From a candidate division TA06 bacterium SM23_40 (GTDB lineage Bacteria > LJUI01 > SM1-40): a stretch of DNA of 18,750 bases. Made by a program: the position numbers and the translations under genes. Within the stretch, counting starts at the first letter, position 1, and each line of letters starts with the position of its first letter. Shown in pieces: positions 1,188 to 10,685 of the stretch. A model generated the notes under the pieces. That model searched no databases, was not told the DNA's origin, and saw only the letters and a list, made by a program, of their open reading frames with translations. The stretch covers positions 1-18,750 of the forward strand of contig LJUI01000043.1 of NCBI GenBank assembly GCA_001303705.1. Direction: 5' to 3'.

Positions 1188-1194
1188 GAGGAAG
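1188..1194 (+). promoter_or_regulatory. mfd: Ribosome binding site deciding the mfd start at 1201
   Basis: GAGGAAG at 1188-1194, with its AGGA core eight bases from the ATG at 1201. It supports initiation in the frame that encodes the Mfd-like N-terminus, rather than at the out-of-frame ATG at 1217. Confidence 0.55.
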
Positions 1195-1200
1195 CTGTTG

Positions 1201-4200
1201 ATGACTCCCATTCCCCATGATAGTACCGATGATAGCCCCGCGGCGAGGTTGGGCCCGTTGCTCGAACGGGTCCCCGCGCTGCACGATGTCGCGCGCGAGC
1301 TTGCGGCAGGCAGATCTCCCGTCACGCTCTGCGGGCTCGCAGCCCTCGGCAGTCGTCGCTTACCTCATACGTCGCCTCGAGCGTCCGATCGCCGCCATCG
1401 CCGGAGATGAGGAGCGGGCGACGGCCCTGTATCAGGATCTCATTGTACTCCTGGGCCAGGGGATGGTGCACCGTCTCCCTCCCTGGGACCTCCTCCCCTA
1501 TGAAGAAGGCAGCCCGAACCAGGAGGTCGTCGGCTCGAGGATCGAGGCCTTTGAGGCGATGACCCAGAACCGATCTGCCGTTGTCGTCCTCTCCCTGAAA
1601 TCATTCATGCAGCAGGTGCCGCCGCCGGAAGCATACCTGGCATCGCGGATCGAGGTGCGGGTCGGCGACGAGATCGATGTCGACGGTCTGTTGTGGCGTC
1701 TCCTGTACCTGGGGTACGAGTACCGCAGCGTCGTCGAGGAGCAGGGAGAGATGAGCCGGCGGGGTGGATTGATCGATCTCTTCTCGTTCGGGATGAAGGA
1801 ACCCCTGCGCATCGAGTTCTTCGGCGACGAGGTCGTATCGCTCCGGAGGTTCGATCCCTTCACGCAGCGCTCCGTGGGCAAGGATGAGCGTGCCGTGATA
1901 CTCCCGTTCCGCGAGCTCTTCTTCGATGAGCAGCAATACCGCCGCGGCGTTAGTGCGCTCGCGCGTCGGGGAGTGGAACTCATCGCTCCAGAGGATGAAG
2001 GGCCGTACTTCGAGGGCATCGAGCGCTACCTCGTGGCGTTCCACGAGCGGCTCGTGTCTGTATTCGACTATCTGTCCCGGGGAGCAGTCCTCGCTGTACA
2101 TGGCAGGGACGACTTGGAGCGCGAGGCTGCTGTCCTCGCCGACGAGCTGTCTCGACACGCCGGCGAAGGCGATGGCGGGAGGGGGGCACACGCTGAGACG
2201 GAATGGGGTGTGCATATTCTACCGCCGGCATCAGCGCTCGAGCACATTCTCGGGTCCCCGGCCGAGCCTCGCAGACTCCCTATCCTCATCCTTGAACGCG
2301 GAGCCGTGCCCGACACTCTCTCCCTTTCCTCCCGACCCCAATCACCCTATGGTGGGAACTTCACTCTGTTCAAAGAGGAGGTCGAACGACTCGGCGGAGA
2401 GGCATATCTTCAGTTCCTCTTCTGCGAGAGCCGGGGCCAGATCGAGCGGCTCACTGAACTGCTGAGCGAGGCCGAGGCCCCACTGGAGCTCGTGCTCGGT
2501 TCGCTGGCCGGGGGATTTCAGATCCCGGACGCCGGGCTCGCCGTGTACACCGACCATGAGATATTCGGTCGGTTCCGGCGGCGCCGCGCACTCCCCAGGG
2601 CGCGGCTCGGGATCCCTCTGGAGGACCTCCTTACGCTTACCCCGGGCGACTGGATCGTGCACGTCGATTACGGGATCGGGCGGTACGCCGGCCTGGAACG
2701 CATCGAGATCGACGAGACGATTACTGACTGCCTGCTGATCCGGTACGAGGGCGACGATAAACTCTACGTTCCGGTTGAACGGATGAATCTCGTGCAGCGG
2801 TACATAGGGAGCAGCGATGCGCGGCCGCGTCCCTCCAAGTTGGGAGGTGCGATGTGGGAGCGGGCCAAGCAGCGGACAAAGCGGGCGATCAGAGAGATGG
2901 CAAAGGAACTCCTCGCCCTGTACGCGGAGAGAGAGGCATATGAAGGTTACTCGTTCTCGCCCGACAAGCCCTGGCAACGTCAGTTCGAGAGTTCGTTTAT
3001 CTACGAGGAGACGGACGATCAACTTGAGAGCACTGAGGAAATCAAGCGCGACATGGAGTCGGCCAAACCCATGGACCGTCTCGTCACCGGTGACGTTGGA
3101 TATGGGAAGACCGAGGTCGCCCTGCGCGCGGCGTTCAAGGCGGTGATGGACTCGAAGCAAGTCGCGATCCTCGTGCCGACGACCGTACTTGCACAGCAGC
3201 ACTATAACACCTGCCTCGAGCGGTTGGCGGGCTTCCCCATCAACGTCGAGATGTTGTCGCGGTTCCGCAGTCGGGCCCGGCAGAAAGCAATTGTTGAAGG
3301 GTTGAGGCGAGGGACAGTGGACATCGTCGTCGGGACGCATCGCCTGCTGAGCAAGGATGTCGAGTTCAAGAACCTGGGGTTGGTCATCATCGACGAGGAG
3401 CAGCGGTTTGGGGTCGCCCACAAGGAGCGGTTGAAGAGGTTCCGCCGCACCGTCGATGTGCTGACGATGACTGCGACTCCCATCCCGCGCACGCTCCACA
3501 TGTCGCTGGTTCGTATACGGGATCTGTCGACGATAGAGACGCCGCCTAAGAACAGACTTTCGATCGTCACCAGAGTCGTGCGGTGGGATGAAGATCTGAT
3601 CGCGGATGCTATCAGGCGCGAGGTTGACAGAGAAGGACAGGTTTACTTCCTCCATAACCGGGTACAGTCGATCGATTCGATGGCCAACTTCCTGCGCCGG
3701 CTCGTGCCGGAGGTGACGCTGGGCGTCGCCCACGGACAGATGCGGGAGGATGAGCTGGAGCGGACCATGGTCGACTTCCTCAACCGGCGATTTCAGGTTC
3801 TCGTCAGCACCTCGATCATTGAGTCCGGGCTCGATATACCGAATGTCAATACGATCGTCGTGAATCGCGCCGATCGGTTCGGGCTGGCCCAGCTTCACCA
3901 GCTGCGAGGACGCGTTGGCCGGTCAGATAGGCTTGCCTACGCCTACCTGCTGGTGCCTGCCGGCGGCAGGGTAACGCGCGATGCGCGGAAGCGCCTGGGG
4001 GCGATCGAGTCCTTTCATGAACTGGGGAGCGGGCTCAAGCTCGCGCTCCGTGACCTCGAGATCCGCGGTGCGGGGAACATCCTCGGGCCGGAGCAACACG
4101 GCCACATCGGCATCGTCGGATTCGATCTGTACTGCAAGCTACTCGATGAGGCCGTGCGGGAGCTGAAGGGCGAGGCTCCTGAGGAACAGTCCGAGCCGAC

Positions 4201-4624
4201 GATCAGACTCGGCGTCGATGCCTACCTTCCGGATGACTACATCGGGGATGCCGAGCACAAGGTGGCGATCTATCGGCGCATCGCCTCGTGCGCGAAAGAG
4301 GATCAGGTGGCGAGCATTGAAGAAGAGCTCGCAGATCGGTTCGGTAGGCTCCCGGAGCCCGCGCGGATGCTGATCGAGGGGATGAAGCTGAAGATCCTCG
4401 CCCGGCGGGCATCGGTGGAGCGCGTGACCGTCCATCAGCGCGTGGCCGAGTTCGAGTACCCGCGCGGGACGGAGCCGGACCGGAAGCGCATCGCATATCT
4501 CATGGAGCAGGTGAAGGAGCCGATCGAATTCGCGGCAGCCGGCAGGTTCGCCATCAGAGTCACGCTCGGAGAGGAACGCCTCCGATTCGATCTGGTCAAA
4601 AAGGTGTTGCGAAGCCTCGCCTAG
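1201..4624 (+). CDS. mfd: Transcription-repair coupling factor Mfd (apparent +1 frameshift near 1343-1345)
   Basis: Mfd is a DNA translocase that removes RNA polymerase stalled at lesions and recruits UvrA. The composite protein (~1140 aa, normal family length) has a UvrB-like N-terminal module (LPPWDLLPYEEGSP); a CarD-like RNA-polymerase-interacting domain (~479-575, GDWIVHVDYGIGRYAG); RecG-like helicase lobes with Walker A GDVGYGKT (630-637), DEEQ box (731-734), TATPIPRT and motif VI QLRGRVGR (900-907); and a C-terminal TRCF domain. Only the frame starting at ATG 1201 encodes the family-like start (ERVPALHDVARELAAG...TLCGLAA). From about 1346 the match continues one frame over as SAVVAYLIRRLERP. 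One surplus C in the CCC at 1343-1345 explains both halves. The uninterrupted frame from ATG 1217 gives 1135 aa, but its first ~44 residues are Arg/Ser-rich and unlike Mfd. Either an assembly error or a real mutation is possible. The function call is very secure. Confidence 0.95.
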
Positions 4625-4753
4625 GGTGTTAGGCTCGTCCCGCCATTCATTGACTATCTCCCTGGACAGGTGATTCACGAAAAGGCGTCGTGACCACGCC
4701 CAGCGGCTCCGGGGCGGGAAGGCTGCCGGTCGACGACATGTTGCTGGAACCAC

Positions 4754-4758
4754 AGGAG
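4754..4758 (+). promoter_or_regulatory. Shine-Dalgarno AGGAG selecting the ATG at 4768
   Basis: AGGAG at 4754-4758 sits nine bases before ATG 4768. The in-frame GTG at 4690 and ATG at 4738 lack comparable sites and would put ~10-26 polar residues before the signal peptide. This site therefore favours 4768 as the true start. Confidence 0.7.
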
Positions 4759-4767
4759 TTGTGCCGA

Positions 4768-6057
4768 ATGCGGTGTGCGGCGCTCAGGACGGATATACCG
4801 AACCTGCTCGTAGCCGTCGTCCTGCTGTGTCTGTCCTTGTTCCTCATCTGCGGGTGCGGAGAGTCACCGTCTCCGGTCATTGCCACCGTAGGCGAGCGTG
4901 AGATGACTGCCGCCGATTGGATCTGGGAGTGCGGTCTCGGCGCGGCGGGCGAGGGCAACCCGCGACCTGCCGATTCACGCGCTGTACTCGACAGGATGAT
5001 CGAGCGGGCCGTTCTCGCCATAGAGGGAGAGCGAAGAGGGTACGATCATCTGCCGGCCATCCAGCGACAACTCGCGTGGATAGAGGAAGAGCAGCTTCTC
5101 CTGGAGACCTACCGGCGTGAGGTCGGCGATCCGAACGCAGGGAACCCTGAGGAGGGAGACTACTATCAGGAACTGAGGGACGGAGCCGGGGTGGAGGTGA
5201 GGGCAGATGGACTGGCAGAGCTCGCGCTGCTTGCGTCATCCAGGGGAAGAGGCGATGAGGGCGTCGAAGTAGTGACGTTCCGGGATACTACGTGGGCCGC
5301 TGGTGAGCTCCTCGAGCGGCTCCGTATGTCGAGGCCGAGTGGTTCGGTGCCCATGGACGAAGCTGTGCTGAGCGACCTTGTGGAGCGGGAGATCGACCGT
5401 GCGCTGCTCGTGGAGAGGGCAGCGGAGCTGGGGATTGACAGCGAAGAGACATTCTTGCGCACGTTGAGGAGGGAGCGTGATCAACTGATAGCGGAGCGAG
5501 TGCTCGAAGCGGAGATAGGGAGCGGGAGAGATCCGTCTCTGCCCGAGCTCCGTGAATACTTCGCGGCCCACCGGGAGAAGTACGAGCGAGAAGAGGAGGT
5601 AAGGGCGAGCATCATTGTCGTTGAGAGTATGTCCGAGGCGGCGGCACTGCTCGATTCGCTCGCTCGCGGGGAGGATTTCGAACGGCTTGCCCGAGAACAT
5701 TCGATCGATCCCTCAGGACCTCGCGGCGGCGATCTGGGATATTTCGCCCGGGGGCGTTTCGAACATATCGAGGAAGTGGCGTTTCGTCTGTCGCGGGGTG
5801 AGGTGTCTGAGGCATTTGCGGTAGATGGCGGCGTGGCGATCATGAAAGTGACGGCGAGGACGCCGGGTCGACAGCTCACCTTCGACGAAGCACGGCGCAC
5901 GGTGGAGAGGGACCTTCGGGAAGAGCTGAGGGCAGCGCGCATTGCGAGCTTTGTGGCGGAACTGAGGCAGGGCGTGGACGTCTCCATTGATGAGGAATTG
6001 GTGGCGCGCTACGAACAACAGATGGCGGAGGTAATCGATGAACCAGAGGAGAAATGA
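4768..6057 (+). CDS. SurA/PpiC-like periplasmic lipoprotein with degenerate parvulin domain
   Basis: From ATG 4768 the product is 429 aa. The N-terminus (MRCAALRTD, then a Leu/Val-rich core) ends in a lipobox-like ICGC, so it is probably a lipoprotein facing the periplasm. A helical SurA_N-like region follows, then a charged linker and a PpiC-type parvulin domain at about residues 275-365, recognisable by the EDFERLAREHSIDPSG...GGDLGYFARG core. The two signature histidines of parvulins are replaced: Ser281 stands where HIL(V) has His, and Ala357 where G-Y-H has His. By family knowledge this suggests little or no isomerase activity and a chaperone role. It is the first of three parvulin genes, 143 bases after mfd, and its end overlaps the next gene by 20 bases. 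An upstream GTG start at 4690 would give 455 aa and is less likely. A weak TTGACT at 4650-4655 has no good -10 partner. Confidence 0.85.
   Translation: MRCAALRTDIPNLLVAVVLLCLSLFLICGCGESPSPVIATVGEREMTAADWIWECGLGAAGEGNPRPADSRAVLDRMIERAVLAIEGERRGYDHLPAIQRQLAWIEEEQLLLETYRREVGDPNAGNPEEGDYYQELRDGAGVEVRADGLAELALLASSRGRGDEGVEVVTFRDTTWAAGELLERLRMSRPSGSVPMDEAVLSDLVEREIDRALLVERAAELGIDSEETFLRTLRRERDQLIAERVLEAEIGSGRDPSLPELREYFAAHREKYEREEEVRASIIVVESMSEAAALLDSLARGEDFERLAREHSIDPSGPRGGDLGYFARGRFEHIEEVAFRLSRGEVSEAFAVDGGVAIMKVTARTPGRQLTFDEARRTVERDLREELRAARIASFVAELRQGVDVSIDEELVARYEQQMAEVIDEPEEK
6027..6031 (+). promoter_or_regulatory. Shine-Dalgarno GGAGG inside the preceding gene
   Basis: GGAGG at 6027-6031 lies six bases before ATG 6038 and inside the 3' end of the preceding parvulin-like gene. 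It fixes the start of the next gene and makes translational coupling across the 20-base overlap likely. Confidence 0.7.
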
Positions 6058-6964
6058 TCTAGCGGCTGTTGTAGTCACGGGTCTCATGGCGTTGTCCCTT
6101 GGTCTGTCGCTGACTCTCGGGCTGCCCGGTTGTGGGCAGCGAGAAGGGGAAGAAGAGATACTCGCCAGGGTGGATGACGCCACACTGACCCTCGATGAAT
6201 TCCTGTCTCAGATTCCAGAGGAAGTGCGTCCTCTTCTCACAAGGCAGAACATGGAGAACCACGTGAAGCGGTGGGCCGACACCCAGCTCTTTTACAGAGA
6301 GGCGATGCGCCGGGGGCTCGACAGGGATCCTGAGGTCGCGCCGAAGTTGGAGAACCTCCGGCGGGAGATCCTCGTGGGGGAGCTGCTGAGCAGGGAGATG
6401 GAGGAAAAAGCGCAGGTGACCGATGAGGATGTTGCGGCCTACTATCGTGAGCATGAGGATGACTATGCGACCGAGATCAAAGTGGCCCACATTCTCGTGA
6501 GCACCCCAGGCGAGGCCCAAAGGATCCTCGAGGAAATTCGTGCTGACGGCGATTTCGCCGAGCTGGCGAGGGCATGGTCACTCGATGAGTCATCGAGGGA
6601 GAGGGGGGGCGAGCTCCCGTACTTCACGCGAGGAAGCGGTGTGCCCGACTTCGAGGATGCGTGTTTTGCGCTTGAGCTCGGGGAGGTGAGCGATGTCGTC
6701 GAGACGGGATACGGGTACCACGTCATCAAAATGATAAGCCACCGACCCGCCGGAAAGATCGTTGTTCTGGAGGAGATCGAGGACGAGCTGCGTGGATATA
6801 TGATGGCGATGAGACAGGATGAACTGCTCAGCTCCTGGCTCGATGAGCTCCGCGCGGGGGCGCGGATCGAGCTGAACCTCGACCTCCTCGAGAGGATCGA
6901 GCCCGCGCTGCCGGGAGGCGGGTCCGGAGCGATGGGGCCGATGGATGCTGGGCCTGACAGGTAA
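6038..6964 (+). CDS. PpiC-type peptidylprolyl isomerase lipoprotein
   Basis: The 308-residue product has a hydrophobic signal (ALSLGLSLTLG) ending in the lipobox LPGC at about residues 26-29, so it is a periplasm-facing lipoprotein. A helical N-terminal region of the SurA/PpiC type precedes one parvulin rotamase domain at about 146-235. Unlike the gene before it, both signature histidines are present: His151 in VAHILV and His228 in GYHVIK, with the GGELPYFTRGSGVPDFEDACFAL core between them. It should therefore be an active cis-trans prolyl isomerase helping exported proteins fold. The start overlaps the upstream gene by 20 bases and has its own strong ribosome site. It resembles PrsA/PpiC lipoproteins, but a specific orthologue cannot be named. 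Confidence 0.9.
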   Translation: MNQRRNDLAAVVVTGLMALSLGLSLTLGLPGCGQREGEEEILARVDDATLTLDEFLSQIPEEVRPLLTRQNMENHVKRWADTQLFYREAMRRGLDRDPEVAPKLENLRREILVGELLSREMEEKAQVTDEDVAAYYREHEDDYATEIKVAHILVSTPGEAQRILEEIRADGDFAELARAWSLDESSRERGGELPYFTRGSGVPDFEDACFALELGEVSDVVETGYGYHVIKMISHRPAGKIVVLEEIEDELRGYMMAMRQDELLSSWLDELRAGARIELNLDLLERIEPALPGGGSGAMGPMDAGPDR

Positions 6965-6972
6965 TGGGTTTC

Positions 6973-6996
6973 GGGCGCCGGATCGATCGGTCGCCC
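6973..6996 (+). other. Intercistronic stem-loop between two parvulin genes
   Basis: GGGCG at 6973-6977 can pair with CGCCC at 6992-6996, with an inner CCG/CGG helix and a one-base bulge. No T-run follows, so it is not a normal intrinsic terminator. It might stabilise or punctuate the transcript before the surA-like gene, or be a chance structure in G+C-rich DNA. Confidence 0.3.
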
Positions 6997-7032
6997 AAAA
7001 TCGAGATGGGGCCATAAAACTGAGGGAGTTGT

Positions 7033-8412
7033 ATGATGCACGATCTTCGCAGGTACATCCTTTTTCTCTTTCTTCTCTTCATGGTGGGAACCTCGTGGGC
7101 GGTCAGGGAGACGGTGGACAGGATCGTCGCGGTCGTCGGCGACGACGTCATACTCGAAAGCGAGCTGACTCGGGAGGTGTACCTGTACTACATCCAATTC
7201 GGAGTGGAGATTGAGGACGAGGCCCAGCTTGAAGACTTGCGTTCGTCGGTTCTCGAGCGGATGATCGAGAGCAGGATACTGTTGGCGGAGGCCAAGCGGG
7301 ACACGATCGAGCCGAGTGAAACAGAGGTGGAGGAAGCACTCAACCAGGCGATCAAGGAGATTTCTGGTCGCTTCCCCAGCGAGGAAGCATTTGAGGAGGA
7401 GGTGCTGCAGCAGGGGTTGACCGTGGATGATTTGCGGGCTCGTTATCGTGAGGATATCCGGGAACGCCTTCTCGTCGATGGCCTCGTTGAGAGGAGATTG
7501 AGGCCGGGTGTGTTCGTCTCCAGCCGCGAGGTTGAGGAATTCTACCAATCGCACATCGATTCGATCCCACTCGTACCTGCGAAGGTTACTCTCTCGCACA
7601 TAATGATCGCCGTCGTCCCTGGCGAGGAGATGGAGAAGGCGGCGAAGGAGCGGGCAGAGGCGATCCTCGCTCTAGTCAAGGAGGGGCAGGACTTCGCGAT
7701 GCTCGCCAGGCGGTTCTCCGAAGATCCGGGCAGTGCCCCCCAGGGGGGCGATCTGGGGTATTTCGGGCGGGGAGAGATGGTGCCGGAGTTCGAGACCGCG
7801 GCATTCGACCTCCAGCCTGGCGAGGTCTCGGGCCTCGTTCAAACGGTCTTCGGATACCACATTCTGAAGTGCGAGGAAAAGGAGGCGGACAGGGTGCGTA
7901 TCAGTCACATCCTCGTACTCCTCCTCCCCGGGCCAGAGGATGCCGCGCGTGCACGTGTAAGGGCGGACTCGGTGAGGACGATGGCGCTCGCAGAAGAGAG
8001 GTTCGCATCGCTCGCCGGCCGGTACTCAGACGATGCCGAGTCACGCGACCGCGGAGGTGTGCTGGGCGAGTTTGTGGTGGATGATCTCGGGCAGTTCCTC
8101 CGCGACGCGATCGAGGGTCTGGGCCCGGGAGAGATCAGCGATATAGTGGAGAGCGACATAGGCTACCACGTAGTCCGTGTCGACGCGTATGAGGCATCGA
8201 GGCGACCGACATATGACGAGATAAAGGGGAGCCTGAAGGAGTTCCTGTTTCAGACGAAGCTGGAGGAGAAATCGAAGGGCTGGATTGAGGAACTCAAAGA
8301 GGAGATCTACGTCGAGAACCGACTGGCTGAATCGGTCGTCGAGAGAGAAGAAGAGGATGAAGGACCTGCTCTCGAGCCTCCGGGTGAGGGCGGAGAGCTC
8401 GGGAGGGAATGA
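7033..8412 (+). CDS. surA: SurA-like periplasmic chaperone/peptidylprolyl isomerase with two parvulin domains
   Basis: The 459-residue product starts with a Sec signal peptide (MMHDLRRY, a Leu/Phe-rich core, then TSWA as likely signal peptidase I site) with no lipobox, so it should be soluble in the periplasm. The mature start VDRIVAVVGDDVILESEL is the typical beginning of SurA_N. Two parvulin domains follow at about residues 186-283 and 289-386. Each keeps both histidines: His189 and His276, then His292 and His379. SurA delivers outer membrane proteins to the BAM machinery, so this gene is a good sign of a true outer membrane. The tail is acidic and Glu-rich. Starts at 7033 and 7036 are adjacent ATGs; GAGGGAG at 7022-7028 fits either. 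The stop is nine bases before the next gene. Confidence 0.9.
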   Translation: MMHDLRRYILFLFLLFMVGTSWAVRETVDRIVAVVGDDVILESELTREVYLYYIQFGVEIEDEAQLEDLRSSVLERMIESRILLAEAKRDTIEPSETEVEEALNQAIKEISGRFPSEEAFEEEVLQQGLTVDDLRARYREDIRERLLVDGLVERRLRPGVFVSSREVEEFYQSHIDSIPLVPAKVTLSHIMIAVVPGEEMEKAAKERAEAILALVKEGQDFAMLARRFSEDPGSAPQGGDLGYFGRGEMVPEFETAAFDLQPGEVSGLVQTVFGYHILKCEEKEADRVRISHILVLLLPGPEDAARARVRADSVRTMALAEERFASLAGRYSDDAESRDRGGVLGEFVVDDLGQFLRDAIEGLGPGEISDIVESDIGYHVVRVDAYEASRRPTYDEIKGSLKEFLFQTKLEEKSKGWIEELKEEIYVENRLAESVVEREEEDEGPALEPPGEGGELGRE

Positions 8413-8421
8413 GGGAGAGAG

Positions 8422-8706
8422 GTGCGGCTCGATCTCTTCTTGAAGACAAGTCGACTTGTCAAGCAGCGGTCACTGGCCAAGCGAGCATGTGATGGAGGGC
8501 GGGTGAAGGTTGGCGGACGGGCGGCGAAGGCGAGTCATCACGTCCACCCCGGGGAACGATTGAGGATCGCCTATCCGACTAAGGTGGTCGAGGTCGAGGT
8601 GGTGGAGGTTCCTGAGGGAAATGTCTCCCGAGCACGGGCTCGCGAGCTCTATCGGGTGCTGTCGGAGGAACGTGTGGATGAATTCTGGCCCGACCGAGCC
8701 CGGTGA
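8422..8706 (+). CDS. rqcP: S4-domain RNA-binding protein, RqcP/YabO-like
   Basis: This small basic protein (94 aa) starts at GTG 8422 as M-RLDLFLKTSRLVKQRSLAKRA, the N-terminal S4 RNA-binding fold, followed by GRVKVGGRAAKASHHVHPGE. Length and pattern match Bacillus YabO (RqcP), which acts with RqcH to add alanine tails to nascent chains on split 50S subunits. The related heat-shock protein Hsp15 also fits but is usually longer with a basic tail. The name is by recognised similarity only; no RqcH gene is in the window. The purine-rich GAGGGAGAG at 8411-8419 overlaps the end of the surA-like gene and is a rather close ribosome site. The gene probably belongs to the surA transcript. Confidence 0.75.
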   Translation: MRLDLFLKTSRLVKQRSLAKRACDGGRVKVGGRAAKASHHVHPGERLRIAYPTKVVEVEVVEVPEGNVSRARARELYRVLSEERVDEFWPDRAR

Positions 8707-8892: not shown

Positions 8893-9741
8893 ATGGGTCT
8901 GTCGCACCAGGAAGTGGAGGAACTGCAGGAGATCGCCCGTCAGCTGCGGATCGACATCGTCGAGATGCTGGCAAAGGCCGGTTCAGGTCATACCGGGGGG
9001 AGCATGTCGATGGTAGAGATCCTTGTCGCACTCTACTTCCGGCATATGCGGCACAGGCCGCACGAACCCTGCTGGCCCGATCGGGACCGCCTTGTCCTGT
9101 CCAAGGGTCATGGCGCGCCCGCCCTGTACGCAGTGCTGGCCCGCGCGGGATACTTCCCCCGCGAGGAACTGAGCCGACTGCGCGTCCTGGGGAGCATACT
9201 GCAAGGCCATCCGGATATGGCGAAGACCCCCGGGATCGACTTCTCCAGCGGGTCGATCGGGCAGGGCCTCTCGGCTGCCTGCGGCATGGCGCTGGCCGCC
9301 CGCCTCGATAAGAAGGATCTCCGCGTCTACTCCGTTCTCGGGGACGGCGACATGCAGGAGGGACAGACCTGGGAGGCTGCTATGGCGGCAGCGCACTACG
9401 GGCTCGGCAATCTCAGCGCCATCGTCGACTATAACCGCGTTCAGTCAGACGGCCCCGTTGAAGAGGTGATGGAGATCAGTCCTCTCGCTGCTAAGTGGCA
9501 GGCGTTCGGCTGGAGGATGATGGAGATTGACGGGCACAATCTCGCGGATGTGAGCGACGCGCTCGAGTGGACTTCCGGCAAAGCGGAATCACCGAGTGTA
9601 GTCATTGCTCATACGATCAAGGGCAAAGGTCTCTCGTTTGCAGAAGGAAAAGCATCGTACCACGGTGTGGCTCCCAGCAAGGCTGAGCTCGAGCAGGCGC
9701 GGAAGGAGCTCGCACCGAAGAGAGAGAGGGTGGTGCGGTGA
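8893..9741 (+). CDS. Transketolase, N-terminal (thiamine pyrophosphate-binding) subunit
   Basis: Transketolase moves two-carbon ketol units between sugar phosphates in the non-oxidative pentose phosphate pathway. Here the enzyme is split into two chains. This 282-aa chain carries the start of the fold (AKAGSGHTGGSMSMVEIL), the KGHGAPALYA segment, and the diphosphate/Mg-binding motif beginning GDG at 150-152 (GDGDMQEGQTWEA) and ending in the DYN residues about 30 later. The tail IKGKGLSFAEG and YHGVAP is typical of this half. ATG 8893 is preceded by only a weak G-rich site (8878-8883). The stop overlaps the GTG of the partner gene by four bases, as expected for subunits made in equal amounts. 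1-deoxyxylulose-5-phosphate synthase is a relative but is a single longer chain. Confidence 0.93.
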   Translation: MGLSHQEVEELQEIARQLRIDIVEMLAKAGSGHTGGSMSMVEILVALYFRHMRHRPHEPCWPDRDRLVLSKGHGAPALYAVLARAGYFPREELSRLRVLGSILQGHPDMAKTPGIDFSSGSIGQGLSAACGMALAARLDKKDLRVYSVLGDGDMQEGQTWEAAMAAAHYGLGNLSAIVDYNRVQSDGPVEEVMEISPLAAKWQAFGWRMMEIDGHNLADVSDALEWTSGKAESPSVVIAHTIKGKGLSFAEGKASYHGVAPSKAELEQARKELAPKRERVVR

Positions 9742-10685
9742 GCGATATGCTCGGAACGCGTGATGCATACGGCAAAACCCTGGCCAGGCTTGGGGAGGAA
9801 CATCCAGAGATCGTCGTCTTCGACGCGGATCTGTCGAAATCGACGCGAAGCGCCGAGTTCGGCAAGCGGTTCCCGGATCGGTTTTTCAATATGGGCCTGG
9901 CCGAACAGAACATGCTGGCCACGGCCGCCGGCATGGCGGCATATGGCAAGATGCCGTTCGTCAGCACCTTCGCGATCTTTGCTAGCGGACGGGCATGGGA
10001 GCAGATCCGCCAGTCGATCTGCTATTCCGATTTGAATGTGAAGATCGTCGCCACACACGGAGGCGTGACGGTCGGGGCCGATGGGGGGTCCCACCAGTGC
10101 ACAGAGGATGTTGCGTTGATGCGTGTTCTCCCGAAGATGACAGTGATCGTTCCCGCCGACGCCTACGAGACCGAGCAGGTGATCGAGGCAGTTGTCGAGC
10201 ATCGCGGTCCGACCTATATCAGATTGGCACGGTCTAAGTTCCCTGTCTGTTACGGTCCCGATTGTAGCTTCAAGATCGGACGCGCTCACCGGATCAGAGA
10301 GGGGAGGGACGTCTCGATCATCGCCGTCGGCCTCATGGTCCACGAGGCCATGGAGGCGAGGGACCTCCTCGCGGCAGATGGCATCGATGCAAGAGTGGTG
10401 AACATGTCGACGATCAAGCCGATCGATGAGGAAGAGGTGCTCGCCGCGGCGAGAGAGACAGGGGGTATAGTCACGGCAGAGGAACATTCGGTGATCGGAG
10501 GGCTGGGGAGTGCGGTGGCGGAGATCGTCTGTGAGAAGCATCCTGTTCCTGTGAAGCGTATCGGCGTGCAGGACCTGTTCGGGATGTCGGGAGACCCTGA
10601 CAGTCTGTTGGAGTTCTACGGACTCAAGGCGCGGGACATAGCAGAGGCAGCAAAGGTCGTGCTCGATGAAAGTGCGAGGGCATGA
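9738..10685 (+). CDS. Transketolase, C-terminal (pyrimidine-binding) subunit
   Basis: This 315-aa partner of the preceding gene has the pyrimidine-binding domain, with the glutamate that activates thiamine diphosphate in the motif NMGLAEQNM, followed by AAGMAAYGKMPFVSTFAIF and GGSHQCTEDVALMR. The transketolase C-terminal domain (VSIIAVGLMVHEAMEA...TIKPIDEEEV) follows and ends in a short helical tail. It starts at GTG 9738, overlapping the N subunit by four bases. Its own stop overlaps the ATG of ftsE by four bases, so the metabolic and division genes are joined. The length is normal for a C subunit and all expected motifs are present. Confidence 0.93.
   Translation: MSDMLGTRDAYGKTLARLGEEHPEIVVFDADLSKSTRSAEFGKRFPDRFFNMGLAEQNMLATAAGMAAYGKMPFVSTFAIFASGRAWEQIRQSICYSDLNVKIVATHGGVTVGADGGSHQCTEDVALMRVLPKMTVIVPADAYETEQVIEAVVEHRGPTYIRLARSKFPVCYGPDCSFKIGRAHRIREGRDVSIIAVGLMVHEAMEARDLLAADGIDARVVNMSTIKPIDEEEVLAAARETGGIVTAEEHSVIGGLGSAVAEIVCEKHPVPVKRIGVQDLFGMSGDPDSLLEFYGLKARDIAEAAKVVLDESARA

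Follow-up and report, generated by a model that had tools for sequence, protein, structure and literature searches.

An assembled bacterial mfd gene split by a frameshift in the GLxGS loop codons of domain 1a

The window analysed here (18,750 nucleotides, bases 1-18750 of contig 161 in a bacterial assembly of 2.88 Mb, 189 contigs and 89.76% completeness) encodes an Mfd-like protein preceded by two possible starts in different frames, ATG 1201 and ATG 1217. This arrangement raises the question of where mfd begins and what change in the sequence separates its start from the remainder of the gene. The ATG 1217 frame spans 1135 amino acids, close to the size of about 1140 residues first given for this protein, and is open up to the stop codon at 4622-4624. 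It encodes about 1,090 residues of Mfd, matching the mfd equivalog model TIGR00580 with 1048.7 bits, above its curated cut-off of 800, and presents in a single chain, and in this order, the domains PF17757, PF02559, PF00270, PF00271 and PF03461. The features of the locus are as follows.

1188..1194, + strand: Shine-Dalgarno-like GAGGAAG before ATG 1201, identified by eye and by anti-Shine-Dalgarno duplex energy
1201..1410, + strand: mfd start in frame 1 (69 codons), with the true N-terminus to about 1341, then out of frame to TGA 1408-1410
1217..1333, + strand: out-of-frame stretch of the open 1217 frame, about 39 residues ahead of its Mfd homology, with no family or relative match
1331..1345, + strand: frame switch in the GLxGS loop codons, with a putative net loss of eight bases (join scan and simulations)
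1331..4624, + strand: remainder of mfd, open and without other lesions (TIGR00580, 1048.7 bits against a cut-off of 800)
1649..1912, + strand: UvrB interaction domain (PF17757, domain match)
2636..2806, + strand: CarD/TRCF RNA polymerase interaction domain (PF02559, domain match)
3068..3925, + strand: SF2 translocase motor (PF00270 and PF00271, domain match)
4208..4480, + strand: TRCF C-terminal domain (PF03461, domain match)

The ATG 1201 frame reads MTPIPHDSTDD...LHDVARELAAGRSPVTLCGLAAL and is terminated after 69 codons by the TGA at 1408-1410. As the initial annotation had proposed, it is preceded by a good ribosome site, pairing of the 20 upstream bases with the anti-Shine-Dalgarno sequence amounting to -7.1 kcal/mol for ATG 1201 versus -1.9 kcal/mol for ATG 1217. 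To locate the family N-terminus, a profile built from the aligned N-terminal regions (about 250 residues) of 89 relatives was run against every stop-to-stop stretch that the six frames contain between window positions 900 and 2000. The 1217 frame scored 221.5 bits, only from column 43 to the end of the profile, with the match in its stop-to-stop frame beginning at residue 43 (base 1331). The best of all other stretches was the ATG 1201 frame, which matched columns 12-43 (RLGPLLERVPALHDVARELAAGRSPVTLCGLA) in the right order and register. Taken alone, this second match is weak (-0.1 bits), owing to the variability of Mfd at this end, and searches of the 69-residue peptide alone against domain libraries returned no match, as expected for so short and variable an end.

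Codon usage changes frame at the same point as profile homology. Between about 1204 and 1342 the codon log-odds are +3.2 for the 1201 frame and -6.9 for the 1217 frame, and between 1342 and 1408 they are -9.6 and +9.9, respectively. Alignment of both N-termini with the Mfd family gave a concordant picture: the 1201 frame continues the profile, and for most relatives, alignment to the 1217-frame protein begins at about residue 39-40, and for E. coli Mfd structures at residue 39. Where pairwise alignments start earlier, as for relative L034 from residue 14, merely scattered residues are in common in that region. The out-of-frame start, first put at about 44 residues, comprises about 39. Joining the 1201-frame prefix to the 1217 frame adds about 16 bits (222.1 to 238.5), a score reached by none of 1000 shuffled-residue prefixes (maximum 235.6) and well above that of the third frame (222.7). 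The complementary profile matches, the join gain, the codon switch, the ribosome site and the points at which relatives begin to align together indicate that mfd is split by a frameshift, as originally suggested, and on these sequence comparisons its true start is assigned to the ATG 1201 frame, with the frameshift about 45 codons downstream.

The step from the 1201 to the 1217 frame is compatible with a gain of one base or with the loss of 2, 5 or 8 bases, continuing in steps of three. The switch falls in the loop G-L-x-G-S-x-x-S at profile columns 41-48, a region (columns 41-55) that is gap-free in all 89 relatives. The 1201 frame supplies the G-L-A of this loop and the 1217 frame its A-G-S-Q-P-S, from overlapping bases. 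A scan of possible joins peaked sharply at a net change of -8 bases (238.5 bits), followed by -11 (232.7), -5 (229.8), -2 (227.6) and +1 (226.7). As a control, single-base insertions or 8-base deletions were introduced in the loop of 42 relatives and the profile was rebuilt leaving each one out. All 42 simulated deletions were recovered as -8; 40 of the 42 insertions were recovered as +1, and in no case did -8 outscore +1 for an insertion. On the strength of the join scan, the gap-free loop and these simulations, a net loss of eight bases in the GLxGS loop codons is well supported as a reading of the sequence, unlike the one-base proposal. Combining a join scan with simulated controls offers a simple means of distinguishing an 8-base loss from a 1-base gain without recourse to reads.

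Two other readings of the split itself can be weighed against these data. The initial annotation had attributed the frameshift to one extra C in the CCC at 1343-1345, and removal of that base does reopen the frame and generate a plausible-looking protein. This join, however, falls about 12 bits below the net -8 join and would cut three residues from the loop that is gap-free in the 89 relatives, and the simulated insertions did not mimic an 8-base loss, making the one-base cause improbable even as the frameshift and the start at 1201 stand. Still harder to sustain is the notion that ATG 1217 is the functional start of a protein with a merely divergent N-terminus. The frame is indeed open from ATG 1217 to 4624, but this start lacks a ribosome site, its initial codon score is negative, and for most relatives and for E. 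coli Mfd the match begins no earlier than residue 39, whereas the profile is carried on exactly by the other frame.

The locus is therefore best described as an ordinary bacterial mfd gene with a lesion, and not as a new system. Compared with the known transcription-repair coupling factor (TIGR00580; E. coli structures 2eyq and 6x26), it has the same domains after the first strand of domain 1a, but its first 43 or so residues sit in a different frame from the remainder, no complete domain 1a (first strand and GLxGS loop in a single frame) is present owing to the split at 1331-1345, and the assembled gene is unable to yield the full protein from its own ribosome site. No second lesion or further decay was detected in mfd across 1,090 open codons encompassing all the downstream domains. 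With the remainder of the gene complete and uninterrupted, the lesion is recent, a variant of one strain or an artefact of the assembly.

On balance, the best explanation appears to be an ordinary mfd gene with one net -8 frameshift in the GLxGS loop of domain 1a, likely caused by loss of a repeat unit through slippage. Under this mechanism, strand slippage, either in the organism or in one strain of its population, would have removed a single unit from an imperfect direct repeat of 8 bases located at about 1331-1341. The codons for G-L-x-G-S naturally read GG.CT. ... GG.TC., which creates an imperfect direct repeat at an 8-base offset and makes the loss of a repeat unit a likely event. In relative L035, GGGCTC occurs twice, 8 bases apart, in the same codons, and repeating eight local bases of the window yields the joined loop GLAGSQPS. 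This signature was considered as proof of slippage and dropped: when 1404 arbitrary 8-base deletions were simulated within the loop or adjoining it in GLxGS-bearing relatives, repetition of eight local bases could likewise restore the motif in 536, so that the signature is weak evidence for the mechanism. Period-8 repeats are barely commoner than other periods in the relatives (mean longest run of 2.38 versus 1.81-2.17), and a tandem repeat finder detected no array in positions 1100-1600. Literature searches covering indel errors in assemblies as well as slippage returned nothing specific. Slippage is hence a plausible mechanism for the sequence observed, and we infer that a frameshifted allele exists in cells.

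The main competitor to a lesion present in cells is an artefact of assembly or consensus, in which mfd is intact in the cells and eight bases dropped out of the contig, for example through strain merging or the collapse of a short repeat. This is a serious possibility, though a less probable one, and the intact remainder of mfd and the fragmented and incomplete state of the source assembly both speak for it. There is also a precedent in Vibrio fischeri ES114, where an apparent mfd frameshift in the first genome release was corrected on resequencing and the gene pieces were fused (PMC2330054). An apparent frameshift in mfd is common to both cases, but resequencing fixed the one in V. fischeri, whereas the present case is seen in assembled sequence alone. 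The assembly carries a single copy of the mfd sequence, and hence stores no second allele. Among the 59 genomes searched as relatives, none was closer than the same domain; the top Mfd match elsewhere is 48% identical in its best segment, with others no higher, and the nearest matches are mostly metagenome-assembled genomes. Against an artefact, the long conserved genes uvrA, uvrB, valS, rpoB, dnaE and recG are single open frames elsewhere in the assembly and the other recognisable genes in the window are likewise intact in single frames, indicating that frameshifts are infrequent here, and eight-base losses are not typical of read errors. By judgement, a lesion that is real in at least part of the population is rated somewhat ahead of an artefact. 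Short repeats within coding sequence can turn genes on and off through changes in length, and the location of the site inside a repeat-like loop could accommodate such switching by an 8-base unit, or a programmed ribosomal frameshift. Both seem very unlikely, given that all 89 relatives read the region in one frame with a gap-free loop, that no standing tandem array is present and that a ribosome slipping by +1 would still produce a loop lacking three residues. An equally slim chance attaches to the specific version in which the 8-base unit is a reversible switch, with two units giving Mfd and one giving none, and a subpopulation with altered transcription-coupled repair.

Beyond the lesion, mfd is followed in the window by three consecutive genes for PpiC-type peptidyl-prolyl isomerases (4690-8412) and by a transketolase encoded as two overlapping genes for its N-terminal and C-terminal halves (8893-10685). 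Between them, a short frame from GTG 8422 (about 8422-8706), below the ORF cut-off used, resembles by eye a small S4/Hsp15-type RNA-binding protein. The gene upstream of mfd (3-803) has no Pfam or NCBIfam match. Both uvrA and uvrB are present in the assembly, and a second UvrA-like gene lies at a contig end (G000 C75:2-1759) and may run off the contig. Searches of the whole assembly for uvrC with TIGR00194, whose sole match covered 44 positions and fell within uvrB, and with PF08459 did not find it, an absence that incompleteness alone may explain in an assembly about 90% complete.

For annotation, where this ordinary finding mostly matters, mfd should be given ATG 1201 as its start instead of ATG 1217 and be marked as carrying a lesion, and the label of a one-base homopolymer error should be avoided. 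As assembled, ribosomes initiating at 1201 would stop after 69 residues, and full Mfd would be lost or some product weakly made from a later start. Such a product would lack the native first 42 or so residues, including the strand leading into the domain 1a loop, and its UvrB-like module, on which the coupling of repair to stalled RNA polymerase depends, would be damaged. In E. coli, transcription-coupled repair does not proceed, either in vitro or in vivo, without the UvrB homology module of Mfd (domains 1a, 2 and 1b), and an Mfd derivative lacking this module has a deregulated ATPase (PMC3025350). If the lesion is real, the strain carrying it would have lost or reduced Mfd, and would be without transcription-coupled repair or impaired in it.
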